A DNA stretch of 64,000 nt from Mesorhizobium japonicum MAFF 303099 (lineage in GTDB: Bacteria; Pseudomonadota; Alphaproteobacteria; Rhizobiales; Rhizobiaceae), in contig NC_002678.2 of assembly GCF_000009625.1 (NCBI RefSeq), positions 2,542,001-2,606,000 on the forward strand. Reading direction: 5' to 3'. Of the stretch, positions 49,638 to 64,000 are shown one piece after another (position 1 is the first letter of the stretch; each line of letters opens with the position of its first letter). Under the pieces are notes generated by a model that worked only from the letters and a program-made list of their open reading frames with translations, had not been told where the DNA came from and ran no database searches. The position numbers were made by a program, and so were the translations under genes.

Positions 49638-49945
49638 GCCTGCGCTTGCTGTCCCCGGTGCCTATGGCGCTCCGGTTGCAGAGTAGATGCGGCGATTTAA
49701 GGGCGGGTTAAATCGGAAAAATTCGAGGCGATTAGTAATCAATTGCTTGGTAGGGCCGGAGCGACCCAGGTCGCAGCTTCCGATAGGTGCTGCGCGAATG
49801 CGTCTCATAGATCGTGAGAAGCGACTTGATCGAGCCATCGAACTTCAGCGGATCGGCACGGTAGCCGGTGCGCCAGAGAAGCATTTCCGCCTGCAGGGAA
49901 TAACATTTCGCCTTCAGCATTTCGGGCTGATCGCCGAGGAAACGG
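49638..49945. other. 308-base region between PBP1A and the channel gene
   Basis: Holds the PBP1A promoter (near 49680-49740, AT-rich) and the apparent integrase fragment at 49732-49920. Nothing else is evident. Confidence 0.6.
49732..49920 (-). pseudogene. Probable phage-integrase N-terminal fragment
   Basis: Sixty-two codons, 25 bases behind the channel gene. FDGSIKSLLTIYETHSRSTYRKLRPGSLRPYQ, read as FDGSIKSLLTIYETH and YRKLRPGSLRPY, resembles the start of the core-binding (SAM-like) domain of tyrosine recombinases of the form F-D-G-x-L-x-x-L-I-x-x-Y-Q-x-x-x-x-S-P-Y-x-x-L. The protein stops before any catalytic residue, so it cannot be active. The call rests on pattern memory. Confidence 0.45.
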
Positions 49946-51013
49946 TCAAGCGCTCGCCGCAGCGCCGCGACGCTCGAGCGCGGTCTTGCGGAAGATTTCC
50001 GCGATCTCCGGGCTGCTGCTGCACAACATCTGGAAATCCGCCGAATGCAGCGACAGGAGTGAGACCGTCGTTGCGGCGCTGACGGTCGCCGAACGCGGTT
50101 CGCCGCTGATCAGCGCCATCTCGCCGAAGAAGGCGCCAGGGCCAAGCTCCACCGGATTCGGCGTCGCGACGCTGACGCTCCCCTCCACGACGAAGAACAT
50201 CCGATCGCCGGGCTCGCCAATGCGGCAGATCACGGCGCCCGCCGGCACCGTGCGGGCTCTTAAGGCGCGCACGATCTCGACCAGCACGGCCGGGCCGAGC
50301 TTCTGAAACAACGGCACGGCGGCGACCAATTGCCAATTGCGGACGAAATCCCCGCGACGGACTTCTTGATAGAAGCCTGTGGCAAGAATGCCGGCCCAGA
50401 GTCCGAAGATGCCGATGCCACTCATCATGACCGCCCCGGCAAGGACGCGGCCGGCGAAGCTTTGCGGGATAGTGTCCCCATAGCCGGTGGTGGACAGCGT
50501 GACCACCGCCCACCACATTGCCTGGGGAATGCTGCCGAACTTTTCCGGTTGGATATCGCGCTCGATGACATAGGCTGCGAGCGCCACTGCGAACAGAACG
50601 ACGCCGAAGAGCGTGGTGACGCCGATCAGATTGCGTGCTTCGTTGGCCAGGACCCTGCCCAGGACCGGGAAGAAAGTCGAGTCGCGCAGCGGTTTCAGCA
50701 GCCAGACAGCACAGTAGAGGCTCCAGTCAGGCGAGCCGTCGAGCAGAAATGCGGCGAGTGGAACCAAGACTGCGAGCACATCGATGGCGATTTTGGGCGT
50801 CCTGTCCCGTACGACTCCCGCCCGGCGCTTGAGCAGCGTCGCGGCCAGTTGCAGGAGATAGGCGCCCCAGATGACAGCGAGCAGGGCAGCCAGAGCCAGT
50901 CTGCTTCGTCCGGACATGTCCGGTATCGTGAGCGCAGCCACCGCCAGCAACCCAGGCGCAGCCAGCACCGCGTTGAGCGGCGCGTAAATTCTTAAGAAAG
51001 GCAGTACCGACAT
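49946..51013 (-). CDS. mloK1: Cyclic-nucleotide-gated K+ channel MloK1
   Basis: A tetrameric inner-membrane K+ channel opened by cAMP. The 355-residue protein has six transmembrane segments (S1-S6, about residues 10-215), the selectivity filter TLSTTGYGDTIPQ, and a C-terminal cyclic-nucleotide-binding domain (about 225-350). The phosphate-binding cassette FGEMALISGEPRSATV holds Arg307, and Arg348 in ALERRG contacts the base. Length and residues agree with MloK1 of Mesorhizobium loti, known from crystal structures. Its start lies 182 bases behind the adenylate cyclase stop, so it is likely in the same functional unit. Confidence 0.97.
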   Translation of the reverse strand: MSVLPFLRIYAPLNAVLAAPGLLAVAALTIPDMSGRSRLALAALLAVIWGAYLLQLAATLLKRRAGVVRDRTPKIAIDVLAVLVPLAAFLLDGSPDWSLYCAVWLLKPLRDSTFFPVLGRVLANEARNLIGVTTLFGVVLFAVALAAYVIERDIQPEKFGSIPQAMWWAVVTLSTTGYGDTIPQSFAGRVLAGAVMMSGIGIFGLWAGILATGFYQEVRRGDFVRNWQLVAAVPLFQKLGPAVLVEIVRALRARTVPAGAVICRIGEPGDRMFFVVEGSVSVATPNPVELGPGAFFGEMALISGEPRSATVSAATTVSLLSLHSADFQMLCSSSPEIAEIFRKTALERRGAAASA

Positions 51014-51195
51014 TGTATGCCCACGAGCGGCTACTATCCTCCAGAATAGGATGCCTTCAAGGCAAGCGCAAAGGGCTTGCTGTCGCTGCGATCTGCTTCA
51101 CCCAGGGTTAACTCAGATCTCCGGGATCGCTTTGTGACCGGACGTCAACGGACAGACCACAAGATGCTAGCGGGTCGGCACTGCCAAGCGGCAAA

Positions 51196-52266
51196 TCAAG
51201 CCGGAAGGCGCCACATTCGCACTCTTCCTGTACCACGCAGTTCCGTTTCCGCGAGTGGGTCACAAGCAAAATCTGGCCCAAGCAGTCTGCGTGTTGCATC
51301 CGAAATACGGATTTCATCGGGCTCCGCGGACGTTTGAATACGTGCGGCGAGATTAACGGTCTCGCCCCACAGGTCGTAAGCAAACCGCCTTTTGCCTATG
51401 ACGCCCGCGACGATTGGTCCTGAGTGAATTCCAATTCTGAGCCTTAGCCGTTCTCCTGCGAAGCGTTCGTGCTGAACCGCCTCCCGCAGTTCAAGTGCAT
51501 AGCGCGCGAGGGCTTCTGCATGATCGGGTCGCGCAGCAGGCAGGCCGGCGACCACCATCACACAGTCGCCGATTGTCTTGATCTTTTCGCAGCCGTATTG
51601 TTCCGACAGCCGATCCGCCGCTTTGAAGAAGTAATTTAAAATAGCGAGCGTCGTCACGGCTCCGACGCTCCGCGCTCTTTCCGTAAAACCGACGATGTCG
51701 GCAAAAAGCACACTTACCTCTGCGTGGTTGTCTGCAATTTGTTCGTCCGCTTTTAACCGCTCCGCGATCGACGCCGGAAGAATGTTGAGGAGCAGGGTTT
51801 CGGCGCGCTGGTATTCACGCTGCAATCCCTCTTGGCTCTCCCTCAACGCCTCGTTCATCGATTGTAATTTCTCGTTGAGTTGACGCTCCCTCTCTTGCAG
51901 GAGCGTCATTTCATAAGCCTTCTGTTGAAGCCGCTGCTTATTGTCGCGTTCGGCGGTGGCGTCGAGAAAGAGCAGCCACACGTAGGCATTGTCAGCAAAA
52001 AGATGAAGGTCCGCGACACGCCCGCTGGGCAGTTCGACCATGGCCATATGATATGGGAGCTCCGGGGAAGGCAGCAAACCTTCCATGAATTCAAGCTGAT
52101 CGGCAACCGGCTGACCAATGCGAAGCGATGAGAGCCCGTAATGTTTAACGTTACCGCCCTTCGCAGCTACGCAAAGCTGGGCGTCAATTTTCAGATAAGC
52201 GATAGAGTGCTCGTTATAAAAAAAATTATAAATCCAGCTTCCGACTTCTTTTGGCAATCTATGCAT
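51196..52266 (-). CDS. Class III adenylate cyclase with N-terminal PAS-like and coiled-coil parts
   Basis: Makes cAMP from ATP. Of 356 residues, about 1-112 form a PAS-like sensor (ending VWLLFLDATAERDN), about 113-165 a coiled coil (LQERERQLNEKLQSMNEAL), and about 180-330 the catalytic domain. Metal-binding Asp residues sit in LFADIVGFTERA and IGDCVMVV. The adenine-selecting Lys (EKIKTIGD) and Asp (FAYDLWGETVN) and the transition-state Asn-Arg (VNLAARI) are all present, so it should be active and ATP-specific. It starts 3 bases after the GTPase stop and lies upstream of the cAMP-gated channel. Confidence 0.93.
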   Translation of the reverse strand: MHRLPKEVGSWIYNFFYNEHSIAYLKIDAQLCVAAKGGNVKHYGLSSLRIGQPVADQLEFMEGLLPSPELPYHMAMVELPSGRVADLHLFADNAYVWLLFLDATAERDNKQRLQQKAYEMTLLQERERQLNEKLQSMNEALRESQEGLQREYQRAETLLLNILPASIAERLKADEQIADNHAEVSVLFADIVGFTERARSVGAVTTLAILNYFFKAADRLSEQYGCEKIKTIGDCVMVVAGLPAARPDHAEALARYALELREAVQHERFAGERLRLRIGIHSGPIVAGVIGKRRFAYDLWGETVNLAARIQTSAEPDEIRISDATRRLLGPDFACDPLAETELRGTGRVRMWRLPA

Positions 52267-52269
52267 GGT

Positions 52270-52764
52270 CTATTTGGCAACCATCGAAGCAAGTTGATGA
52301 AACGCATCATCAACATACTCACCAGAAAGCGCACTTGTTAAATAGATTTGCCATCCAAGCTGCCTCAGATTGTCAATGTCACCATCCGATATTTCCCACC
52401 GATCAGCAAGATCGGATTTGTTGAACAGCAATACAAACGGCATAGTGCCGAATTCAGCCTCGACTCGCTCACGCAGCGTGAGCGCCGCGGCAAGAGTAGC
52501 GGCACGGGTTCCATCAACGACAAGCACGAGCCCAGTCGCACCTCGCACATGGCTGACGCGGAATGAGCCGATATCGTCTTCGCCGGCCAAATCCCACAAA
52601 ATCAGATCCACGGTTTTGTCCGGGAGTGCGACGCTCTTCTTGTCGATTTTCACTCCCACCGTGGTCAAGTAGGTTTCTGAAAAGATGCTTTGTACAAACC
52701 TGCGAACCAGACTCGTCTTTCCGACACCGAACCCGCCCAACATGCAGATCTTTTTTTGCAACAT
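52270..52764 (-). CDS. Ras/Rab-like small GTPase
   Basis: A 164-residue GTPase with all G motifs: G1 GGFGVGKTSLVRRF, a Thr-containing switch I (TTVGVKIDKK), G3 DLAGEDDIG, G4 NKSD and G5 TSALSG. In place of the usual D-T-A-G-Q-E it reads D-L-A-G-E-D, so the catalytic Gln is Glu and intrinsic hydrolysis may be slow. ATG 52764 has GGAG nearby; GTG 52776, which overlaps the upstream stop, would add four residues. No lipidation motif is seen. It lies between the OmpA-domain gene and the cyclase. Confidence 0.92.
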   Translation of the reverse strand: MLQKKICMLGGFGVGKTSLVRRFVQSIFSETYLTTVGVKIDKKSVALPDKTVDLILWDLAGEDDIGSFRVSHVRGATGLVLVVDGTRAATLAAALTLRERVEAEFGTMPFVLLFNKSDLADRWEISDGDIDNLRQLGWQIYLTSALSGEYVDDAFHQLASMVAK

Positions 52765-52775
52765 CTTGAGCTCCA

Positions 52776-55700
52776 CTAGTCCAGGTTTACCGTAATCGAA
52801 ACCCGGCGATTGGTGGAGCTCCCAGTTTGACTATTTTCAGGCACCAGCGGCTCAAAGGTGCCCGCGCCCCGAACCAGCAGCAGTTCCGGAGCGACGCCGC
52901 GCTTGTTGAGAAGCGCACGAACTGTCTCGGCGCGGGCTGCGCTGATCGACGCGTTGGCCGTCTCACGCCCCGTGGCGTCCGAATGGCCGGTTAACATGAA
53001 CCGCGCTGTTACGCCTGACTTGCGGGCATTTTCGGCGAATTCCTTTATTTGATCCGCCAATCTGTCGAGAACCGGCGTCTGCTCTGGTCCCGGCACAACT
53101 TTGCCGGAATAGAAGAAAATATCGGTCGCCTGGATGGCCTCTCGCAAATCATTAAGTTCTGCAAGGTTCAGCTCCTGCAGCTGCGAGACATCCAGAACCA
53201 CTCCGTCCGCCGAAAGTTGTTCGGCGGCGGCCCGCGCCCGGTTGATCCAGTTGGCAGGAGCCTCACCCACGACAACGATGCGACCCTGGATGATCGAAAG
53301 CAGAACCGATTTCGGCGGGGTCAGCGAAGCCTGCAACCGCTTCACCACGAACTTCGGATCAAGGCTCTGATAGAATTGCCACTGTGAATGAACGCGGGCG
53401 GGATCAACCTCCGTTCCGTGCAGCAGAGCTTGCGGGTCGGCGGCAAGCGGGTCTCTCAGGCCGGAAATGTAGAAATCTCCGCCCCTTTCCGTTTGCTGGG
53501 CGACGATGATTCCCGGTTGGGCCTCAAGTCGCGACACATAATACTGCCAATGCTCCGCCGCGCGCGCTTCGGGGCTTACATCACGAACCTTGGAGATGTC
53601 GAATTCCGGTCCGCCTGCCGAAAGCTGTCGGGCCGCCGCGCGCGCCTTATCTATCCAGGTGTCGGGAGCCTCACCCTCGGCAATGATGCGATCATTGACG
53701 ATCGAAAATCGCACTGTATCCGGCGGATACAGCGACGCCGTCAGCCGCTTCAACACGAACTCCGGCTCAAGGCTCTGATAGAATTTCCACTGCGAATGAA
53801 CGCGGGCGGGATCGACCTGCGTTCCCGACAACAGCGACTGCGGGTCGGCGCCAAGCGGGTCTCTCAGGCCGGCAACATAGAATTGGCCGTCGCGTATCTT
53901 TTGCTCTGCAACGATGATGCCCGGCTGGGTCTCCAGTCGCGACACATAGGCCTGCCAGCGCTCCGCCTCGCGTTCTTCGAGGCTTACATCACGGACCCCG
54001 GAGATATCGAACACCGGCCCGCCTGCCGACAGCTGCTGGGCGGCGGCCTGCGCCCGGCCGATCCAGGTGGCAGGAGCCTCGCCCTCGGCAACGATGCGAT
54101 CCTTGATGATCGAAAGTCGTACTGTATCCGGCGGAGCCAGCGACGCCGTCAGCCGCTTCAACACGAACTCCGGCTCAAGGCTCTGATAGAATTTCCACTG
54201 CGAATGAACGCCGGCGGGATCGACCTGCGTTCCCGACAACAGCGACTGCGGGTCGGCGCCAAGCGGGTCTCTCAGGCCGGCAACATAGAATTGGCCGTCG
54301 CGTATCTTTTGCTCTGCAACGATGATGCCCGGCTGGGTCTCCAGTCGCGACACATAGGCCTGCCAGCGCTCCGCCTCGCGTTCTTCGAGGCTTACATCAC
54401 GGACCCCGGAGATATCGAACACCGGCCCGCCTGCCGAAAGCTGCTGGGCGGCGGCCTGCGCCCGGCCGATCCAGGTGGCAGGAGCCTCGCCCTCGGCAAC
54501 GATGCGATCCTTGATGATCGAAAGTAGTACTGTATCCGGCGGAGCCAGCGACGCCGTCAGCCGCTTCAACACGAACTCCGGCTCAAGGCTCTGATAGAAT
54601 TTCCACTGCGAATGAACGCGGGCGGGATCGACCTGCGTTCCCGACAACAGCGACTGCGGGTCGGCGCTTAGCGGGTCTCTCAGGCCGGCAACATAGAATT
54701 GGCCAAAGCGTACCTTTTGTTCGGCAACGATGATGCCCGGCTGGGTCTCCAGTCGCGACACATAGGCCTGCCAGCGCTGCCCGGATTGCCAGGAAAGAAG
54801 GACCCAACCGCCTGCCGGAACTAAAAGCAGCAGGACTGCAACCACCACCAGCCACGGAAATCCCTGGTTTGCTTCCTCCTGCTTCAGCTCAACGCACGTC
54901 TGCAATTGCGCCTCTACGCCGGCCAACTGCGAACTGTCGCCGTCAAACTCCCCTAAAGCCTGTGAGCATTCCTCATGGATGCGAAGCAATACATCGCGAA
55001 CTATTTCATGTAATTCCTCTGGCGGATTTCCTCGGATCACCGAAACCAAGGTCGCAAATTGTCCAACTTCTGACCAGAGACGAAGGTCGCCAAAACGAAT
55101 AGTGTCCAGACTGCTCTGTTCTTTCTCGTTAAATGAGTCCTTCACAAAATCTTGAATTGCACTAAGCATCGAAGAAATGAGTTGAGGATCCTCGCTCGTC
55201 GCGTTGTCGGCAGCTACATGCGCTATCAAAAGTCCGGAATTTCGGCTAATAAGGAAGACATGCTCTACACGATAGACAAGAGAATGTTTAAGAACAACTT
55301 CCGAGAAGCTAGCACCGGTTCTCCAAGATTCAAATCTCCACTTGAGCCCATGCCAAGTAAATATATGCCTTAAAGTTTCATTCAGCGATTGAAAGGTCTG
55401 GTCGATCTTTTCCCCGATCGACTTGCGAATTGCCGGCAGAAACACCGGGTATAATATATCCGTCAGCGTGCGCGGGCTCTTCTGGATCGACCGTTGCACA
55501 GCCCTTTCGACAGCTGGCGCAAGGGCCTCGCCGAGTTGCGCATGAGGCGCTCGTGCGGCCGCACTGGGAAGAACGTCGCCCACGGCTGCCGCGAGCTGCT
55601 CCGGTTCGTCCAGCAGATGCGTAACTCGTGAAAGCTCTGAAATTTCGCGGCTGACCAGCAACTGGCGCAGCGTTTCCATACGAGGATCGGCGCTTGGAAC

Positions 55701-55841
55701 TCCGTCGAAACGCGCACGGTAGTCCGGATCAACGTTCCGGGCAATTTCGATCAAAAGACGAGCCAGAGCCTCGCGATCAATCTCTGTATCGTTCGAGGCT
55801 GTTCTTTTCGGAAGGCTGATTGGGTCGACGGTCGACGTCAA
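52776..55841 (-). CDS. Large membrane protein with four tandem repeats and a C-terminal OmpA domain
   Basis: A 1021-residue protein. Residues 1-325 are predicted cytoplasmic. One transmembrane helix (about 329-352, FPWLVVVAVLLLLVPAGGWV) leads to four tandem 136-residue repeats (356-491, 492-627, 628-763, 764-899), each ending in a BON-like beta-alpha unit (DRIVAEGEAPATWIGRA). A C-terminal OmpA/MotB-type peptidoglycan-binding domain follows (LTGHSDATG, TNRRVSITV). It could join the cytoplasmic GTPase to the cell wall. It starts 7 bases after the coiled-coil gene stop. No catalytic motif is visible. Confidence 0.9.
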   Translation of the reverse strand: MTSTVDPISLPKRTASNDTEIDREALARLLIEIARNVDPDYRARFDGVPSADPRMETLRQLLVSREISELSRVTHLLDEPEQLAAAVGDVLPSAAARAPHAQLGEALAPAVERAVQRSIQKSPRTLTDILYPVFLPAIRKSIGEKIDQTFQSLNETLRHIFTWHGLKWRFESWRTGASFSEVVLKHSLVYRVEHVFLISRNSGLLIAHVAADNATSEDPQLISSMLSAIQDFVKDSFNEKEQSSLDTIRFGDLRLWSEVGQFATLVSVIRGNPPEELHEIVRDVLLRIHEECSQALGEFDGDSSQLAGVEAQLQTCVELKQEEANQGFPWLVVVAVLLLLVPAGGWVLLSWQSGQRWQAYVSRLETQPGIIVAEQKVRFGQFYVAGLRDPLSADPQSLLSGTQVDPARVHSQWKFYQSLEPEFVLKRLTASLAPPDTVLLSIIKDRIVAEGEAPATWIGRAQAAAQQLSAGGPVFDISGVRDVSLEEREAERWQAYVSRLETQPGIIVAEQKIRDGQFYVAGLRDPLGADPQSLLSGTQVDPAGVHSQWKFYQSLEPEFVLKRLTASLAPPDTVRLSIIKDRIVAEGEAPATWIGRAQAAAQQLSAGGPVFDISGVRDVSLEEREAERWQAYVSRLETQPGIIVAEQKIRDGQFYVAGLRDPLGADPQSLLSGTQVDPARVHSQWKFYQSLEPEFVLKRLTASLYPPDTVRFSIVNDRIIAEGEAPDTWIDKARAAARQLSAGGPEFDISKVRDVSPEARAAEHWQYYVSRLEAQPGIIVAQQTERGGDFYISGLRDPLAADPQALLHGTEVDPARVHSQWQFYQSLDPKFVVKRLQASLTPPKSVLLSIIQGRIVVVGEAPANWINRARAAAEQLSADGVVLDVSQLQELNLAELNDLREAIQATDIFFYSGKVVPGPEQTPVLDRLADQIKEFAENARKSGVTARFMLTGHSDATGRETANASISAARAETVRALLNKRGVAPELLLVRGAGTFEPLVPENSQTGSSTNRRVSITVNLD
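53145..54776 (-). repeat. Four 408-bp in-frame tandem repeats
   Basis: Units run 54776-54369, 54368-53961, 53960-53553 and 53552-53145 (minus strand). The second and third are almost identical in DNA (for example the GTTCCCGACAACAGCGACTG segments at 53821, 54229 and 54637 are exactly 408 bases apart), while the fourth is diverged. This indicates recent duplication by unequal recombination. No non-coding spacer exists between units. Confidence 0.97.
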
Positions 55842-55848
55842 GGTCCCA

Positions 55849-56514
55849 TCAACTCGCTTTCCAACTACGGTCCGAGTTGCTCTTGCTGCCGACGGGATCC
55901 TGATTCAGACATTTTGCAACCTCGACAAACAGGCCAGCCAAAAGATTTCGGTCGGTCTTGACGTTGCTGAGATCGGCAAACATTTTCTCTATCAGCATCT
56001 GAACGCCTTCATTCTTCTGCTTGATTTCCTCACGCAGTGAATGATCGTTCCGATTTATCCGGTCCGCGACGTCGCGCTCAAGCGCGCTCAATTGATCCGA
56101 CAACGCGCGCACCTGCTTTTCAAGTGCCTGGTTTTGCTCGCGAAGATTCCGATCAATCTCCTTGTCGGCATCGGCTCGTGAATCTTTTTCGTTCCGCAAT
56201 TGCCCCGCAAGCGAATCGACCTGCTTCTTTGCATTTGTCTCGTACATGTCGAGATTGCGCTTGGCCTCGGATTCGACATCCTTGAAGCGTTGCAAGACCC
56301 GTTCTTCAAGCTTGGAGAAGCGGCGGTCATAGTCCTGCATCTGGTTGCCGAACAGCAGATCACGTATCTTGTCGACACCTACAGCGTCGCCGGAGCCCCC
56401 GCTTTCGCGAGCCTGGACCCCCATGAAGTTCAGCCCGTTTCCTTCTGCGTTACCTATCAGATTTCCGTCCGCCTTCTTTTCTGAAGAAGCGGAATTCGAA
56501 GATTCCTTTGCCAT
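55849..56514 (-). CDS. Coiled-coil protein, first gene of the GTPase/cyclase operon
   Basis: A 221-residue soluble protein, not recognised as a named family. Residues 1-45 are Ser/Gly/Asn-rich and disordered. About residues 45-185 form an extended coiled coil (RFSKLEERVLQRFKDVESEAKRNLD as LEERVLQRFKDVESEAKRNL, REQNQALEKQVRALSDQLSAL). The C-terminus is short (LLAGLFVEVAKCLNQ). GGAAGGG precedes the ATG at 56514; a longer frame to 56706 would run through the permease remnant. It could be a GTPase effector or scaffold. Confidence 0.8.
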   Translation of the reverse strand: MAKESSNSASSEKKADGNLIGNAEGNGLNFMGVQARESGGSGDAVGVDKIRDLLFGNQMQDYDRRFSKLEERVLQRFKDVESEAKRNLDMYETNAKKQVDSLAGQLRNEKDSRADADKEIDRNLREQNQALEKQVRALSDQLSALERDVADRINRNDHSLREEIKQKNEGVQMLIEKMFADLSNVKTDRNLLAGLFVEVAKCLNQDPVGSKSNSDRSWKAS

Positions 56515-56668
56515 GTTTTTGCCCTTCCATTTGAACACCTGCCACAGTGCGAAACCCCAAATATTAGAAAGTAAGCATGTCAGCAAAATACCCGACCCGC
56601 AAGCCGGTATCGTCTTGACTTGAGCCGATTTGTGGGGCAGCCGAACGCTGCGTCGCCGAGGCAACAAT

Positions 56669-56815
56669 GGTGATACGCCAGAAAATCCGGCCTTCGCCGG
56701 CGCCATCGATCGTCGCCGCCTGATCCAGATCTCCAGGCAGATCGAGCATGTAGGCGCGGATAAGGAACGTGGTCAGCGGCACCCGGCATCCGCTTTGTCC
56801 GAACAGATACGAATT
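56669..56815 (-). pseudogene. Remnant of a sugar ABC-transporter permease (MalG type)
   Basis: About 49 codons without a usable start or a rest of the gene. FGQSGCRVPLTTFLIRAYML and DLPGDLDQAATIDGAGEGRI match the EAA loop region of carbohydrate permeases, ending WRIT. It shows that a larger gene once lay here and was cut away, at the edge of the channel/cyclase module. Confidence 0.75.
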
Positions 56816-57159
56816 TCGTAATTAATACAGTAGCATCCTCATCAACCCTGCCGAGAATTCACACCTGCCGTTGCGAAAGCGGAAGCGAACGATGCCGGGG
56901 GGCGATCAGCGGGGTCGCTGCAACGTTTCGTCTGGACTTTCTCAGTCCTCGGAAATCTCTTCGTTCGACCCCGTTCACAACGCTCCGCATTCCAAATTCA
57001 TCTGCACCGCCTTCGAGCCGTTCCGGAGTGGAACGCTGCGGGGGGGGAACCGCGGCTTGAAACAATCCGCGCAGCCAGCGCCGCCGGCGCGCCCGGAACG
57101 TACGTCAAGTTGACATCGCCTGTAGCAAGCGGGCAACTGAGCAGACGCAGCTTCCTGGC

Positions 57160-57305: not shown

Positions 57306-58520
57306 ATGACCCAGCACGTACAAAACGCTCGAATTCTCATGTACAGCCACGATACGTTCGGGCTCGGCCACTTGCAGCGCTGCCGGACGATCGCGCATTC
57401 GCTGGTCGAGGATTTCCGCGGACTTCAGGTGCTTATCATTTCGGGTGCGACTATCGCTGGCGCCTTCGACTACCGCGCCCGTGTCGACTTCGTGAAGATC
57501 CCCAGCGTCATCAAGTTGCGCAACGGTGAGTACACCTCGCTGGAAAAGGATATCGATCTGCATGAGACGCTAAGGATGCGCCAGTCGATCATCCGCCACA
57601 CAGCCGAGACCTTCCGGCCGGATATCTTCATCGTCGACAAAGAACCGCTCGGTCTGCGCGGTGAGATTGAGGACACGCTGTCGTACCTCAAGACGCGGGG
57701 TACCACGCTCGTGCTTGGCCTGCGCGAGGTGATGGATGCGCCACATCTGCTCGAAGCAGAGTGGGCACGCAGGGATGTGATGCGCAAGATAGGCCTGTTC
57801 TACGACAGGGTCTGGGCCTATGGTCCGCCGGATTTCTACGATCCGTTGACCGGCTTGGATGTGCCTCCGGCTGTCAGGGCAAAGATGACCTTCGTCGGTT
57901 TCCTGCAACGGAGCCTGCCGCGGAACGAGTTGCCCGGCCACCGGCCCGAGGGCGACTATATCCTCGTTACCACCGGTGGCGGGGGTGACGGCGCCGAACT
58001 GATCCACGACGTCATAGATGCCTATCAACAGGATCCGCAATTGCAGCATAGGGCGCTGATCGTGCTTGGGCCTTACATGCCGGCGCGCAAGCGCAACAAG
58101 CTGCTCAAGAAGGGGTCCAAGATCCCCTACATCAAGATCATCGAGTTCGACAACCGCATGGAAGATCTGATTGCCGGTGCCAAGGCGGTGGTGGCGATGG
58201 GCGGCTACAACACCTATTGCGAGATACTGTCTTTCGACAAACCGGCGCTGATCGTGCCGCGCGTAGAGCCCCGAGAGGAACAACTGATCCGCGCAAAGCG
58301 CGCAGCCGAACTCGGCCTCATCGAGATGCTTTTGCCGGAAGAAGCCAAGGATTCTCAGCGGTTTGCCGATGCACTGGTGGTGCTGCCGGACCGGCCCCGC
58401 CCATCACAGAGCAATCCGCATCTGACGCTGGAAGGGCTGCCTCATATATCCGAGATCGTCGCGGAACTGCTCGACCGGCGGGCCGGCCATCACCTTTCGG
58501 TCATCGAAGGCATGAACTGA
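57306..58520 (+). CDS. MurG-like glycosyltransferase (first of three)
   Basis: A 404-residue GT-B fold protein. The N-terminal half begins ARILMYSHDTFGLGHLQRCRT, with the Gly-rich acceptor loop. The C-terminal half has the UDP-sugar-binding pattern ILVTTGGGGDGAELI, VVAMGGYNTYCEILSF and ALIVPRVEPREEQLIRA. It resembles UDP-GlcNAc-type transferases (Glyco_tran_28_C). The acceptor is probably a lipid or polysaccharide intermediate. The next gene begins one base after its stop. Confidence 0.85.
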   Translation: MTQHVQNARILMYSHDTFGLGHLQRCRTIAHSLVEDFRGLQVLIISGATIAGAFDYRARVDFVKIPSVIKLRNGEYTSLEKDIDLHETLRMRQSIIRHTAETFRPDIFIVDKEPLGLRGEIEDTLSYLKTRGTTLVLGLREVMDAPHLLEAEWARRDVMRKIGLFYDRVWAYGPPDFYDPLTGLDVPPAVRAKMTFVGFLQRSLPRNELPGHRPEGDYILVTTGGGGDGAELIHDVIDAYQQDPQLQHRALIVLGPYMPARKRNKLLKKGSKIPYIKIIEFDNRMEDLIAGAKAVVAMGGYNTYCEILSFDKPALIVPRVEPREEQLIRAKRAAELGLIEMLLPEEAKDSQRFADALVVLPDRPRPSQSNPHLTLEGLPHISEIVAELLDRRAGHHLSVIEGMN

Positions 58521-58521
58521 G

Positions 58522-59766
58522 TTGCAACATCGCAAGATCGTCGTGGTTCTGAAGGGCTATCCGCGGCTGTCGGAAACCTTCATCGCGCAGGAACTGCTCG
58601 GTCTGGAGCGTGCGGGGTTCGACCTGATACTCGTCGCGCTCAGGCGGCCGACCGACGCAAAACGCCACCCCGTGCATGACGAGATCAAGGCGCCCGTCCA
58701 TTATCTGCCCGAATATCTGCATGAAGAGCCGCTGCGCGTGGTTCGCTCGCTGTTCGCTTGTCTGATGCGGCCAGGCTTCTGGCGCGCGCTCGGATCGCTT
58801 GCTACCGATATCCCCCGCGACTTTACGCGCAATCGCGTGCGCCGCTTCGGGCAAGCGCTCGTGCTGGCGGCCGAATGGCCGGAAGACGCGGGCTGGCTGC
58901 ACGCACATTTCGCGCACACACCGGCATCGGTGACGCGCTATGCCAGCCAGCTTCGTGGCCTGCCCTGGAGCTGCTCGGCTCATGCCAAGGACATCTGGAC
59001 TTCGGCGAACTGGGATCTGGCTGGCAAGCTCTCCTCGGCACGTTGGACGGTCACTTGCACGAAAACCGGCTTCGACCGTCTGAAGAAACTCGCTAACGGC
59101 AACTCGTCTGTGCATCTGAGTTATCATGGGCTCGACCTTGATCGCTTCGGCAGTTTCGGCGAGGCTCGGAACCAACATGACGGCTCGACGCCGGACGAAC
59201 CGGTTATCGTTCTGAGTGTCGGGCGCGCCGTTGAAAAGAAAGGTTACGATACCTTGCTGGAGGCCCTTGCCCTCTTGCCTGGTGATTTGGCGTGGCGTTT
59301 CGAGCATATCGGCGGCGGCGAGGAACTGGAACGGCTCAAGGCGCTGGCGCAAAAACTCGGACTGGATGGTCGCGTCTCTTGGAAGGGCGCGCTTGCGCAG
59401 GAGGAGGTGCTTGAGCACTACCGCTGCGCCGACCTCTTCGCCCTGGCCTGCAGAATCACCGCAAATGGTGACCGGGACGGTCTGCCGAATGTTCTGGTGG
59501 AGGCGGCTAGCCAGCGGCTTGCCTGCGTGTCGACCGATATTTCTGGTGTGCCGGAGCTTTTGTCGCCGGACGAAACCGGGCTGCTGGTTCCGACGGAAAA
59601 TCCAGTTGCCCTGGCACAGGCGCTGGAGCGCCTGATCCGTGATCCCGCGCTGCGCGCCCGTCTCGGTGACGCCGCAGAGCGGCGCGTGCGCGACAATTTC
59701 AATCATATGGCAAGCATTGGACAGCTCAAGGAACTGTTCGAGCGGGAGTGGCGGGTCGCCGAATGA
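58522..59766 (+). CDS. GT4-family glycosyltransferase
   Basis: A 414-residue GT-B transferase starting at TTG 58522: YPRLSETFIAQELLGLERAG, HAHFAHTPASVTRYAS, then the GT1 C-terminal domain with VLSVGRAVEKKGYDTLLEAL, RVSWKGAL and the E-x7-E motif DGLPNVLVEAASQRLACVST (as GLPNVLVEAASQ). Similar to exopolysaccharide/LPS sugar transferases. Its stop overlaps the next start (ATGA). Confidence 0.9.
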   Translation: MQHRKIVVVLKGYPRLSETFIAQELLGLERAGFDLILVALRRPTDAKRHPVHDEIKAPVHYLPEYLHEEPLRVVRSLFACLMRPGFWRALGSLATDIPRDFTRNRVRRFGQALVLAAEWPEDAGWLHAHFAHTPASVTRYASQLRGLPWSCSAHAKDIWTSANWDLAGKLSSARWTVTCTKTGFDRLKKLANGNSSVHLSYHGLDLDRFGSFGEARNQHDGSTPDEPVIVLSVGRAVEKKGYDTLLEALALLPGDLAWRFEHIGGGEELERLKALAQKLGLDGRVSWKGALAQEEVLEHYRCADLFALACRITANGDRDGLPNVLVEAASQRLACVSTDISGVPELLSPDETGLLVPTENPVALAQALERLIRDPALRARLGDAAERRVRDNFNHMASIGQLKELFEREWRVAE

Positions 59767-60956
59767 AGCGGCTGCGCGCTTTCTTCTATGTCCAGCACCT
59801 GCTCGGCATCGGCCATCTCGCACGCGCCAGCCGCATTGCGGCCGCTCTGGCCGATGACGGGTTTGACATAACCGTCGTGACCGGCGGGCCGCCGATCGCG
59901 GGGTTTCCGGGACAGGGGGTAAAATCTGTAACCCTGCCACCTGTCACTTCCGGCGATAATGGATTTTCCGGACTTGTCGACCTGCAAGGCAAACCCATCG
60001 ACGATGATTTCAAGAAACGGCGTTCAGAGATGCTGCTGCAGGCATTCCGGGATTGCAGGCCTGATATCGTCATTGTCGAGGCGTTTCCGTTTGGACGCCG
60101 GCAGATGCGTTTCGAACTCTTGCCGCTGCTCGAGACCATCGAAGCGACGTCGCCCAGACCGCTGCTGGCGACGTCCGTCCGGGATATTCTTCAGGAGCGC
60201 GTCAAGCCGGGCCGAAACGAGGAAACGGTCGATCTCATCAACAGGCATTTCGACCTTGTAATGGTCCACGGTGATCCGGCTTTCACAACCATCGACAAGA
60301 CATTTCCACTGGCTGGGGCGATCACGGCCGAGGTCACCTACACAGGGCTCGTCGGCGCGCCGCCATCGCCTGCGGCCGCCGAGCGTTTCGACATTCTGGT
60401 GTCGGTTGGCGGCGGGGCGGCCGGAAGGAGGCTTGTCAGTTCCACCCTCGCAGCGGCGCGGATTGCCAACGGTTGGAAATGGTGTTTGATCACCGGCCCA
60501 AACCTGCCGAAAGACGAGTTTGATGTGATCGCATGCGATGCCACGCCGGGCCTGTCCATCTTCCGTTTCCGCGAGGATTTTGCCAGCCTGTTGACCGGCG
60601 CCCGCCTGTCAGTCTCGCAGGCGGGTTACAACACGGTCTGCGATGTACTGCGCGCGGGTTGTCGCTCCCTGCTGGTTCCATTTGCGGCCGGCGGAGAAAC
60701 CGAACAGACGGTTCGCGCCCTGATGCTGGAAGAGCTCGGTCTTGCAACGGTGCTGACAGAAAATGACCTGACGCCTGACGGCTTGGCGCAAGCGATCGAG
60801 CAGGCGCTTGCGGGACCGACGCCATCCGCGCATCGGCTCGACCTGGAAGGTGCGCGTCACTCCGCGCAAATCCTGCGCGAACGGTATCGAACATGGTCCC
60901 TAAAAATGGGGTCCGGTTTCGGAAAGGAACATGATCAAACAGACGATGGGTCCTAG
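59763..60956 (+). CDS. MurG-like glycosyltransferase (third)
   Basis: A 397-residue GT-B protein related in layout to the first glycosyltransferase: FFYVQHLLGIGHLARASRIA at the N-terminus, ILVSVGGGAAGRRLV in the middle and SVSQAGYNTVCDVLRAGCRSLLVPFAAGGETEQTVRA (as SQAGYNTVCDVLRAG) near the end. The final 18 residues appear to be read from repeat-like DNA rather than from the ancestral gene. Translationally coupled to the GT4 gene. Confidence 0.85.
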   Translation: MKRLRAFFYVQHLLGIGHLARASRIAAALADDGFDITVVTGGPPIAGFPGQGVKSVTLPPVTSGDNGFSGLVDLQGKPIDDDFKKRRSEMLLQAFRDCRPDIVIVEAFPFGRRQMRFELLPLLETIEATSPRPLLATSVRDILQERVKPGRNEETVDLINRHFDLVMVHGDPAFTTIDKTFPLAGAITAEVTYTGLVGAPPSPAAAERFDILVSVGGGAAGRRLVSSTLAAARIANGWKWCLITGPNLPKDEFDVIACDATPGLSIFRFREDFASLLTGARLSVSQAGYNTVCDVLRAGCRSLLVPFAAGGETEQTVRALMLEELGLATVLTENDLTPDGLAQAIEQALAGPTPSAHRLDLEGARHSAQILRERYRTWSLKMGSGFGKEHDQTDDGS

Positions 60957-60999
60957 ACTGTTCATCGGCTTTAACGCGCATCGTGTCTGGCGAGTACGA

Positions 61000-61064
61000 C
61001 GCACTTCAAGTCCTTGTTTTATGTCGTTGTCCCAAAATCGCTGCGCACTTTTGGGCGAAATGCA
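61000..61064. repeat. Diverged RIME-like repeat, copy 4 (reverse orientation)
   Basis: CTTGTTTTATGTCGTTGTCC followed by CGCTGCGCACTTTTGGGCG and AAATGC is the reverse-complement form of the repeat at 34322. It fills the gap between the third glycosyltransferase and the convergent methyltransferase-like gene. Confidence 0.5.
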
Positions 61065-61739
61065 TCAAACAGTCCCGATCAGCATGAAGCGCGTATAGTT
61101 TCTTGTCGGCAGTTCGCCGGAGAACCGCACCTCGCTTAGCGCCGCCATCGCTTCGAATGCTGCAAGTGAAGCCACGCAGTTGATGTGCGTTGGCTCGCTG
61201 AAATAATCGTTCGATTGCAGCAGTACTTTCGTGCCCCGCGGAAGCAGGGCAAGCCAGGCGCGCAGATCGGCTATGTGTTCGCAGCTCGTATTGACCGTCA
61301 AGTCTGGCCGCCCGGCCGCATAGTCGAGCGCGTACATATCTGCCGTCAGCGCCCGGAACCGGTCGCCTGCTTCCCGGTTGAGGGTCCGGGCGACCGCCGC
61401 GACTTCGGGATCGATGTCGATGCTATCGACCGCCGCGACGTCGAAGCGGGCGTCGTTGAAGAGCATTGCCGGCAATACGCCGTACCATCCACCCAGAACC
61501 CATATGCGCCCGAACCGGCCGCCGCTGCTCTCGAACAGCCTGTCGAGCGCCCACATCTTGCACGCAACCTGCTTGTGGTTGAAGGCGTTGGCGACATCGG
61601 CCGTCGGATGCTTGGCGATGACGCGTGCAAGCCCTGCCACGAGAGGGTTGTTGACATAAGCAGCAATTCCCCGCGTGAGGTCCAGGGTTTGCTCGTGCCC
61701 GTCCGTGCCGACATTGCGTGGTTGCGTGACATCCATCAT
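61065..61739 (-). CDS. SAM-methyltransferase-like protein in the polysaccharide cluster
   Basis: A 224-residue protein with a Rossmann-type segment IWVLGGWYGVLPAMLF, an acidic AAVDSIDIDPEVAAVAR and DLTVNTSCEHIADLRAWL. These fit a class I methyltransferase fold in which the usual G-x-G-x-G is partly changed. Two adjacent ATGs (61739, 61736) follow AAGG; a GTG at 61772 lacks a ribosome-binding site. It is oriented against the glycosyltransferases and diverges from the ABC gene. Catalysis is not certain. Confidence 0.7.
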   Translation of the reverse strand: MMDVTQPRNVGTDGHEQTLDLTRGIAAYVNNPLVAGLARVIAKHPTADVANAFNHKQVACKMWALDRLFESSGGRFGRIWVLGGWYGVLPAMLFNDARFDVAAVDSIDIDPEVAAVARTLNREAGDRFRALTADMYALDYAAGRPDLTVNTSCEHIADLRAWLALLPRGTKVLLQSNDYFSEPTHINCVASLAAFEAMAALSEVRFSGELPTRNYTRFMLIGTV

Positions 61740-61895
61740 ATTCGCCTTGTATGTTGGGATTTCGGGCGACACAACGCAATCTTGCCAGCAAAGCCGCCTC
61801 GCAGGCTTCGAACGTGTCGCCGGCGATGATTGCCGATGCGCCGTTCACCAGCCGCTTCTACTTTTGTTCCTTAAACTGAAGGTCCACAGTCGCAT

Positions 61896-64000
61896 ATGGA
61901 ACCCAGCCTAGCCCGCTATATCTGGACGCACACCAAGAAGCAGCAGCTCTGGATATTGATGATCGTCCTGCTTTCGATGATCCCGTATTTCATGTCCTTC
62001 GACCTGCCGAAGCTGATCGTCAACGGCCCGATCCAAGGCAGGGGCTTCGAGCAACCGGGCGCGACCCAGGCATTCATGCGGCTGCACTATAACCTGCCGT
62101 TCATTGGCGATGTCCTGTTCTTCTCCGGTTTTCAGCTCGACCGCACGGCGACGCTGTTTGCCCTGAGCGTTGTGTTCCTCTTGCTGGTCGTCATCAACGG
62201 CCTGTTCAAACTCTACATCAACACCTACAAGGGCCGCCTCGGCGAACGCATGCTGCGGCGTATCCGCTTCGATCTGGTCGATCGTGTGCTACGGTTTCCG
62301 CCGGTTTACTTCAAGCGGGTGAAATCCGCCGAAGTGGCGACCATGGTGAAGGACGAGGTGGAGCCGCTGGGCGGCTTCATCGGCGATGCCTTCCTGCAGC
62401 CGGTACTGCTCGGCGGCCAGGCGCTGACGGCCATGCTGTTCATCTTGGTCCAGAACGTCTGGCTCGGAATGGTAGCGGCCGTGATCGTGGCGATCCAGAT
62501 CGTGCTCATCCCGCGAATGCGCCGGCGGCTGATCGTGCTCGGGCGCCAACGGCAGTTGACGGCGCGCGCGCTTTCGGGCCGGGTTGGCGAAATCGTCGAC
62601 GGCATCGGCGCGGTCCACGTCCACGATACATCAAACTACGAGCGCGCCGACATAGCTGCCCGGCTCGGGCTCATCTTTAAGATCCGCTTCGATCTTTACC
62701 AATGGAAATTCATGGTGAAGTTCCTCAACAATTTTCTCGCGCAGATCACGCCCTTTCTGTTCTACATGATCGGCGGGTACCTGGTCATCCAAGGACGGCT
62801 GGACGTCGGCCAGCTCGTGGCCGTGATCGGCGCCTATAAGGACCTGCCCGGACCGATGAAGGAACTGATCGACTGGGATCAGGATCGGCAGGATGTCCAG
62901 GTCAAATATCAGCAGGTCGTTGAACAGTTCACCGTCGAGGGTCTCATCGCGCCGAGAATCGGGGCGTTGACGATTGACGATCCCGATCCGATGACCAGCC
63001 CCCTTTCGGCGATCAGTCTGTCCATGGCAGACGATGGCGGCGCAATGCTCCTCAACCGTATCTCCCTCCAGGTCAAGCCGGGTGAGACGGTGGCGCTGGT
63101 CAGCACCGCAACAGGTGGAGCGGAGGCGCTTGCAGAAGCCTTCGCGCGGCTGAACTGGCCGGACAGCGGAAGGGTCACTTCGGGCGCCGACGACCTGCTT
63201 GAACTCCCCGAAGCAGTGACCGGCCGGCGCATGTCCTATGCCTCGTCGGATGTTTTCCTGTTCCAGGCAAGCCTCCGCGATAACCTGCTCTACGGGTTGA
63301 AGCATGCGCCGCTGACATCGGTGCCTTATGACGGTGCTGCGGCAGACCAGCGCCGCTGGAACGTCGACGAGGCGCGCCGGTCGGGCAATCCGGATCTTGA
63401 TATCCACAGCGACTGGATCGACTACGCTTCCGCCGGCGCTACCGGCCCGCACGACCTCTTTGAACCCGTGCGCCGGGTGCTCGACGCGGTTGTTCTGTCG
63501 CGCGATATTCTGGATCTTGGCTTGCGCTCCTCGGCCGACCTCACGCGTCACACGGAGCTCGCCAGGCGGATCGTCGAACTGCGTGCGGCGCTGCGAACCC
63601 GGCTGGAACACGAAGGGCTGAGCGGACTGGTCGTTCCTTTCGAACCGGGCGCCTACAACAAGGAAGCAACGATCGGCCAAAACCTCCTCTTCGGCGCAGC
63701 CGCCGGCTCCGAGCTGGCCGATAGGGCTCTGGCGGCCAATCCCTATTTTGCTTCTGTGCTGAGGCAGGCCGGACTCGACCGCACGCTCTACGAAATGGGC
63801 ATGGAGATCGCCGAACAGGCGATCGAGCTGTTTGCCGACCTGCCGCCCGATCACCAGTTCTTCCAGCAGCTCGCCTTCATGAGCGCCGAGGAGATACCCG
63901 CCTACGAAACCTTGCTGCAACGGCTCAAGAACCGTCCCTACGAGGCAGTTTCGGAGAACGACCGCGCCATGATCGTCACCTTGAGCTTTGCCTATATCGA
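61896..64000 (+). CDS. ABC exporter (fused membrane/ATPase), 3' end outside the window, Walker A degenerate
   Basis: At least 701 residues and still open at the window end. A transmembrane domain of about six helices (residues 20-330) shows the ABC-exporter layout (FDLVDRVLRFPPVYFKRVKSAEVATMVKDEVE as RFDLVDRVLRFPP). The first nucleotide domain (about 365-) lacks a proper Walker A: V-A-L-V is followed by STATGGAEA where GxxGxGKST is expected. A Q-loop-like VFLFQASLRDNLLYGL is present, then about 130 residues of insertion, then a second TIGQNLLFGAA. The signature and Walker B lie beyond the window or are absent. Likely exports the cluster's polysaccharide or lipid. Confidence 0.85.
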   Translation, partial: MEPSLARYIWTHTKKQQLWILMIVLLSMIPYFMSFDLPKLIVNGPIQGRGFEQPGATQAFMRLHYNLPFIGDVLFFSGFQLDRTATLFALSVVFLLLVVINGLFKLYINTYKGRLGERMLRRIRFDLVDRVLRFPPVYFKRVKSAEVATMVKDEVEPLGGFIGDAFLQPVLLGGQALTAMLFILVQNVWLGMVAAVIVAIQIVLIPRMRRRLIVLGRQRQLTARALSGRVGEIVDGIGAVHVHDTSNYERADIAARLGLIFKIRFDLYQWKFMVKFLNNFLAQITPFLFYMIGGYLVIQGRLDVGQLVAVIGAYKDLPGPMKELIDWDQDRQDVQVKYQQVVEQFTVEGLIAPRIGALTIDDPDPMTSPLSAISLSMADDGGAMLLNRISLQVKPGETVALVSTATGGAEALAEAFARLNWPDSGRVTSGADDLLELPEAVTGRRMSYASSDVFLFQASLRDNLLYGLKHAPLTSVPYDGAAADQRRWNVDEARRSGNPDLDIHSDWIDYASAGATGPHDLFEPVRRVLDAVVLSRDILDLGLRSSADLTRHTELARRIVELRAALRTRLEHEGLSGLVVPFEPGAYNKEATIGQNLLFGAAAGSELADRALAANPYFASVLRQAGLDRTLYEMGMEIAEQAIELFADLPPDHQFFQQLAFMSAEEIPAYETLLQRLKNRPYEAVSENDRAMIVTLSFAYI

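Follow-up and report, generated by a model that had tools for sequence, protein, structure and literature searches.

The genes for Group 1 Rup GTPases, as described in the available text of Wuichet and Sogaard-Andersen (2014, PMC4316618), are neighboured by a coiled-coil gene, a gene encoding a conserved domain that is often followed by a transmembrane (TM) helix and an OmpA domain, and an output gene. The output is typically a c-di-GMP enzyme or a histidine kinase, and its N-terminus carries an invariant Gln, which that text suggests could supply the catalytic Gln absent from Rup; it also names mll3243 and lists an M. loti Group 1 Rup. Nearby mll3241 encodes MloK1, a cyclic AMP (cAMP)-gated K+ channel and a much-used structural model of cyclic-nucleotide-modulated channels (PMC5034309, the available text of which mentions neither a cyclase nor an operon). 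Here, we analyzed 64,000 nucleotides of Mesorhizobium japonicum MAFF 303099 that contain these genes, positions 2,542,001-2,606,000 of contig 1 (NC_002678.2) in a genome of 7,596,297 bases and 3 contigs, labelled G000; this whole stretch is hereafter the window. A sequence-only reading had joined five minus-strand genes of the window into a single route from envelope to GTPase, cAMP and K+ flux. All five are present in the order and place proposed, and our analysis gives good support for assigning four of them, at 51196-56514, to a Group 1 Rup system with a class III adenylate cyclase output. The features are as follows, in window coordinates.

55849-56514, minus strand: coiled-coil protein of 221 amino acids (aa), first gene of the Rup module, ATG at 56514
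52776-55841, minus strand: OmpA/repeat membrane protein, TTG start
Residues ~190-322 of the OmpA protein: cytosolic domain, longin/roadblock fold predicted from a structure model
Residues ~330-354 of the OmpA protein: TM helix
Remainder of the OmpA protein: repeats (3.8 x 136 aa), then the C-terminal OmpA domain
52270-52776, minus strand: Group 1 Rup Ras-like GTPase mll3243, G3 motif DLAGED
51196-52266, minus strand: class III adenylate cyclase, with PAS-like N-terminal part, Gln115, coiled coil and catalytic domain
51014-51195, minus strand: cyclase-channel gap of 182 bp, its 3' part being the conserved MloK1 upstream block
49946-51013, minus strand: MloK1 (mll3241), cAMP-gated K+ channel, neighbour of the module

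The product of mll3243 is a single-domain Ras-like GTPase (Pfam Ras, 3.3e-27) of 168 aa, or 164 aa from the ATG at 52764, a start suggested by homologues that are 164 aa long. This size lies within the 150-240 aa criterion for Group 1 Rup, and the G3 motif, DLAGED, is without Gln, its E being invariant in 20/20 aligned relatives. The locus thus combines the GTPase size and Gln-less G3 motif of Group 1 Rup with coiled-coil and TM-OmpA neighbours and an N-terminal Gln in the output. Of the sequences in the PDB, the GTPase matches Rab23 best. Furthermore, scanning a Rup alignment against GTDB genomes returned 68 loci, in every one of which (68/68) the OmpA gene immediately precedes that of the GTPase. 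A coiled-coil match precedes the OmpA gene in 56/68 loci (of the 12 misses, 8 leave the contig and 4 belong to distant loci), Rup is followed by a match to the cyclase query in 62/68, and the gene order is constant throughout. These observations bear out the view that envelope protein, GTPase and cyclase work as one signalling unit.

The four genes are also tightly packed. Read 5' to 3' along the minus strand, they are separated by 7 bp, a 1-base overlap and 3 bp, followed by 182 bp to the channel gene; gaps of at most 7 bases or overlaps, as first claimed, are therefore what we find, and the OmpA-GTPase spacing is 11 bp if the GTPase begins at the ATG at 52764. The coiled-coil start at 56514 is shared by the homologue of locus L403. 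Upstream of this gene, a frame at 56640-56830 resembles by eye a fragment of an ABC transporter permease, which suggests a rearrangement boundary.

Other Rup arrangements were seen in passing. In L145, L146 and 14 Mesorhizobium genomes, another type of Rup GTPase, with an identity of 35-37% in Mesorhizobium, is encoded after an OmpA protein of a different sort; within 1.5 kb of it in L145 and L146, no adjoining output gene was seen. In G027 (contig 1, 1,364,098-1,367,255), a second Rup module has diverged, with identities of 49-53% for OmpA, 63% for Rup and 47% for the N-terminal part of the cyclase, and its output frame is shorter.

Aligned with adenylate cyclase 9, the module cyclase retains the metal Asp pair, the adenine-type Lys/Asp, the Asn and the Arg of class III enzymes, which are their catalytic residues, and its active site therefore appears as intact as had been claimed. 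Its N-terminal part is PAS-like, judging from the order of secondary-structure elements in a structure model. Gln115 is invariant in 9/9 aligned proteins (7 from Rup loci), where it forms one of five invariant columns; another alignment includes two proteins that lack it, the truncated L149 and P0077, a receiver-cyclase in which this N-terminus is missing. Class III cyclase outputs are found in Mesorhizobium, in Rhizobium and at five further loci of proteobacteria (L147, L148, L152, L213, L214). Elsewhere, Rhodopila has a SpoIIE phosphatase as output (assigned by Pfam in L211 and by similarity in L150 and L151), two Nitrospirales loci have a sigma-54 regulator (Pfam for L205, similarity for L207) and an Oleiphilaceae locus has a GGDEF-EAL protein (L210); L208 stops too early to show its output. 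In the available text of PMC4316618, cyclase, SpoIIE-type phosphatase and sigma-54 outputs go unmentioned, and its main text has no word beginning with 'adenyl'. The new elements are a Rup output that is an adenylate cyclase and retains the invariant N-terminal Gln, and the fold predicted for the cytosolic domain of the OmpA protein.

The OmpA gene contains a 408-bp (136-aa) repeat in 3.8 copies at window positions 53209-54778, and the open frames of its homologues range from about 750 to 1027 codons, a spread that would fit a spacer of variable length. Preceding the TM helix, the cytosolic domain is predicted to adopt the longin/roadblock fold seen typically in regulators of GTPases, MglB among them; its fold matches include Fuzzy, Mon1-Ccz1 and TRAPP chains, and we regard this as a fair prediction from the model. 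A roadblock profile at 1e-5 did not detect the domain, and a profile search of the PDB with it gave 3 matches, none relevant, with E values of 0.37 or worse. A longin/roadblock-like domain in the conserved membrane partner would be a concrete candidate regulator and makes a link from wall to GTPase open to testing.

Beyond the coiled-coil gene, a polysaccharide/export cluster of ~36 kb extends from window position 57306 to about position 2,634,700 of the chromosome. Its part within the window reads as follows.

57306-64000, plus strand: start of the cluster, which runs on beyond the window end
57306, plus strand: GT1
58522, plus strand: GT2
59748, plus strand: GT3
61065-61772, minus strand: methyltransferase-like
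From 61896, plus strand: ABC transporter

Pfam identified the glycosyltransferases GT1, GT2, GT3 and GT5, the ABC transporter, a stand-alone 157-aa cyclic nucleotide monophosphate (cNMP)-binding protein, an MBL-fold protein and DUF3095 in the cluster, and GT4, a UDP-sugar dehydrogenase, a peptide-type ABC transporter and an AhpC-like gene were recognized by eye. It holds four more class III cyclases, AC2, AC3 and AC4 (Pfam) and AC5 (from the genome-wide PF00211 matches), placing five of the genome's ten PF00211 matches within 36 kb (contig 1, 2,593,205-2,628,558, from window position 51196 onward). The end of the cluster at which the module is found varies, being that of GT1 in G000, G160 and G121 and that of GT5 in G091 and G029. 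The module is located within 60 kb of GT1 in 50/80 genomes, and MloK1 in 17/59. Control of the cluster by the module through cAMP is the most economical reading.

We lean towards an interpretation in which the four genes are a Group 1 Rup cyclase system set by the state of the wall, whose cAMP acts on the cNMP-binding proteins of the cluster, with MloK1 as a separate unit. The signal flow that we infer would begin with the repeat protein, which would span the envelope bound to peptidoglycan. Its cytosolic longin/roadblock-like domain would hold the Rup GTPase and set its nucleotide state according to that of the wall. GTP-bound Rup would then dock on the PAS-like N-terminus of the cyclase and switch cAMP synthesis, and Gln115 of the cyclase may provide the catalytic Gln missing from Rup. 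The cAMP produced would act on the stand-alone cyclic-nucleotide-binding domain (CNBD) protein of the cluster and, where present, on MloK1.

Several observations weigh against this interpretation. Among the Rup loci, no output identity was obtained for L206 and L209, and the ten PF00211 matches leave nine in the genome besides the module cyclase. The model of the cytosolic domain has a mean predicted local distance difference test (pLDDT) score of 56 overall and about 71 over residues 191-320; the domain matches no Pfam family at its cut-off, and its profile comparison with 23 roadblock sequences was not significant, with 21 aligned columns. Finally, in 42 of the 54 Mesorhizobium genomes that carry both MloK1 and the module, the two lie more than 20 kb apart or on different contigs (29 genomes, in which the distance is not measurable).

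The channel itself is MloK1, since its score against PDB 2zd9 ('Mll3241 protein', 753 bits over 354 residues) is the same as its self-score. We infer that it is probably transcribed as a separate unit and was brought next to the module by rearrangement. In the 54 genomes with both, MloK1 and the module lie on one contig in 25, within 20 kb of each other in 12 and within 1 kb in 7, so that the conserved channel-cyclase linkage expected by the sequence-only reading is largely absent. MloK1 is downstream of the cyclase in G000, G118, G071, G101, G108, G115 and G121, upstream of the coiled-coil gene in G160 and G090, and far off elsewhere. The junctions are unlike among G000/G118, G101 and G108/G115/G121, suggesting that adjacency probably arose more than once. 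Furthermore, the ~55-150 bp directly upstream of MloK1 match those of G000 at 78-90% identity in all 42 of the 59 MloK1 loci that this comparison covered (42/42), whatever precedes them. This block contains a promoter-like TTTGCG-18-TATTCT by eye and was not flagged by a promoter scan. GC content at third codon positions (GC3) is likewise uneven, as that of MloK1 (0.78) is akin to the genes on its left (0.85 in the PBP gene beyond it) versus 0.57-0.64 in the four module genes.

In two genomes (G098, G011), the C-terminus of MloK1 is present a second time (63-66 residues, 85-92% identical) ~3 kb downstream of the channel gene, at 4939-5229 of L394 and 4659-4949 of L395, respectively, with AhpC-like and AC5-like pieces between; it looks like a duplication at an insertion. 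That these pieces are remnants of the cluster was considered and dropped, as they are 45-66% identical to those of the cluster. We also rejected a cyclase-channel fusion in G400 and G342 (737-codon frames): in G400 (L134), the one inspected, the extension runs antisense to a gene for an ABC transporter.

At first, co-occurrence appeared decisive for a channel-cyclase link. In a sample of 146 Mesorhizobium genomes, MloK1 was found in 59 and the module, scored by the cyclase orthologue, in 80; 54 genomes had both, 5 MloK1 only, 26 the module only and 61 neither (Fisher p 2.9e-14). On an rpoB tree of 139 genomes (7/146 omitted, 4 without an rpoB match and 3 fragments), a dependent model of evolution beat an independent one with a likelihood ratio (LR) of 95.5, a value reached in 0/120 simulations (maximum 16.3, 95% point 9.3), and independent pairs were concordant in 26 cases and discordant in 1. 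The lifestyle control nodC was less strongly associated, with LR values of 14.7 for MloK1 and 21.5 for the cyclase. However, the neighbouring glycosyltransferase gene GT1 (57306), present in 89 genomes, accompanies MloK1 in 59/59 cases and the module in 80/80, so that conditioning on the cluster leaves little association: for the 89 carriers alone, the counts become 54, 5, 26 and 4 in the same order (Fisher p 0.48). On the pruned tree of carriers, the LR of 11.0 (asymptotic p 0.026) exceeds the 95% point of 9.3 and falls within the range of the whole-tree simulations (maximum 16.3). The co-occurrence is therefore real and mostly accounted for by the polysaccharide cluster. The observed restriction of MloK1, within the genus, to genomes that carry a cAMP-rich polysaccharide cluster hints at what it may serve.

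A sample of the wider family comprised 247 genomes, of which 19 had a channel match, 3 of them Mesorhizobium, 8 at least 59% identical and 8 weaker (37-45%). Outside Mesorhizobium, the 8 genomes with MloK1 at 59% or more and the 2 with the module do not overlap. A GT1 relative occurs in 8/8 and 2/2 of these, respectively, compared to 123/247 overall, with an identity of 45% in G299 and 70-81% in the others. Six of the 8 genomes with a weaker channel also have a GT1 match, G222 and G410 being without one.

Next to a separately transcribed MloK1 that shares the cAMP of a Rup system, one may suppose that module and MloK1 merely share the edges of an often-rearranged polysaccharide cluster, with no functional link. 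The share of co-occurrence that the cluster accounts for and the shifting position of MloK1, which can precede the coiled-coil gene, follow the cyclase or be far from both, are in line with this idea, as is a module remnant of 53 residues, 79% identical to the OmpA protein in its TM region, that lies beside MloK1 in G082, which has MloK1 and no module (L400, 5154-5312). In contrast, 15/59 genomes encode a class III cyclase domain no more than 1 kb from MloK1, a count that includes loci with short flanks (273 bp on one side in G151). Seven of these are the module's own cyclase, upstream on the same strand; 4 are of another kind in the same position (Fer2-cyclase-Rieske in the one scanned by Pfam), 3 lie on the other strand (the one scanned being of TPR type) and 1 is downstream. 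At least three types thus adjoin MloK1, and at least two make up the 11 that are upstream on the same strand. Against the 15 seen, chance would give fewer than one (a rough estimate from 10 to 30 cyclases in ~7 Mb, uncorrected for relatedness). Incidental adjacency alone seems rather unlikely to us. Coupling of cAMP to MloK1 stays plausible, and this partly rescues the proposed cyclase-channel link; MloK1 is a plausible candidate for a cAMP target of the system, and a dedicated pathway is poorly supported.

Such a pathway, in which all five genes act in series from envelope through GTPase and cAMP to MloK1 and K+ flux and form one expression unit in MAFF303099, is improbable. It would draw on the same-strand adjacency of MloK1 here and in 6 more of the 54 genomes, on the probable repeated origin of this adjacency, on the strength of the co-occurrence across the whole tree, on the residual association among cluster carriers and on the cyclases of other types beside MloK1. 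However, that residual signal stays within the simulated range and is not borne out by the Fisher test, 5 genomes have MloK1 only and 26 the module only, and MloK1 has its own conserved upstream block and a different GC3. Together with the scarcity of adjacency and the lack of overlap in the family sample, these results do not favor a single pathway ending in MloK1.

A Pycsar-like phage-defence (abortive infection) module acting through cAMP and K+ loss, also raised by the sequence-only reading, is exceedingly improbable, as the cNMP-binding, cyclase and MotB/MotA-like models returned by PADLOC at low scores cover shared domains (53.6 bits to PycC versus 168 bits to Guanylate_cyc) and the neighbourhood resembles polysaccharide biosynthesis.

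Our literature search, which covered few subscription papers, found no description of a link between MloK1 and the module, and we do not claim its absence from print. Returning to the Rup cyclase system, we tentatively propose a broader analogy, against which the odds are: a bacterial wall-sensing counterpart of the Rab/longin-regulator pair of eukaryotes. Its OmpA end would clamp peptidoglycan and its cytosolic longin/roadblock domain would load or unload a Rab-like GTPase. This would drive interchangeable enzymes (adenylate cyclase, SpoIIE phosphatase, sigma-54 regulator, GGDEF-EAL) via a common N-terminal receiver with a trans-acting Gln and, in Mesorhizobium, would control the surface-polysaccharide cluster and MloK1 through cAMP.

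Among known systems, the Group 1 Rup loci in the available text of PMC4316618 are the closest, with the same four-gene set, mll3243 itself, a G3 motif without Gln and the invariant N-terminal Gln of the output. The locus differs from them by an adenylate cyclase in place of the typical c-di-GMP enzyme or histidine kinase, by the predicted longin/roadblock-like nature of the cytosolic domain of the OmpA protein and by the tie of the module to a polysaccharide cluster. MglA/MglB and the actinobacterial conservons, as presented in the same text, also combine a Ras-like GTPase, a roadblock-fold partner and a signalling output; here, however, the GTPase belongs to the Rup branch rather than to MglA, and the longin/roadblock-like domain is a predicted one inside an OmpA-type membrane protein. 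The channel, by its score, has the sequence of the solved MloK1 structure, with no difference in the protein. Eukaryotic Rab GTPases with longin regulators (Rab23 with Fuzzy-Inturned, Mon1-Ccz1, TRAPP) resemble the system in the Rab23 match of the GTPase and the fold matches of the cytosolic domain, a likeness for which sequence does not establish homology, whereas the system described here is bacterial, with an OmpA end and a nucleotide-cyclase output.

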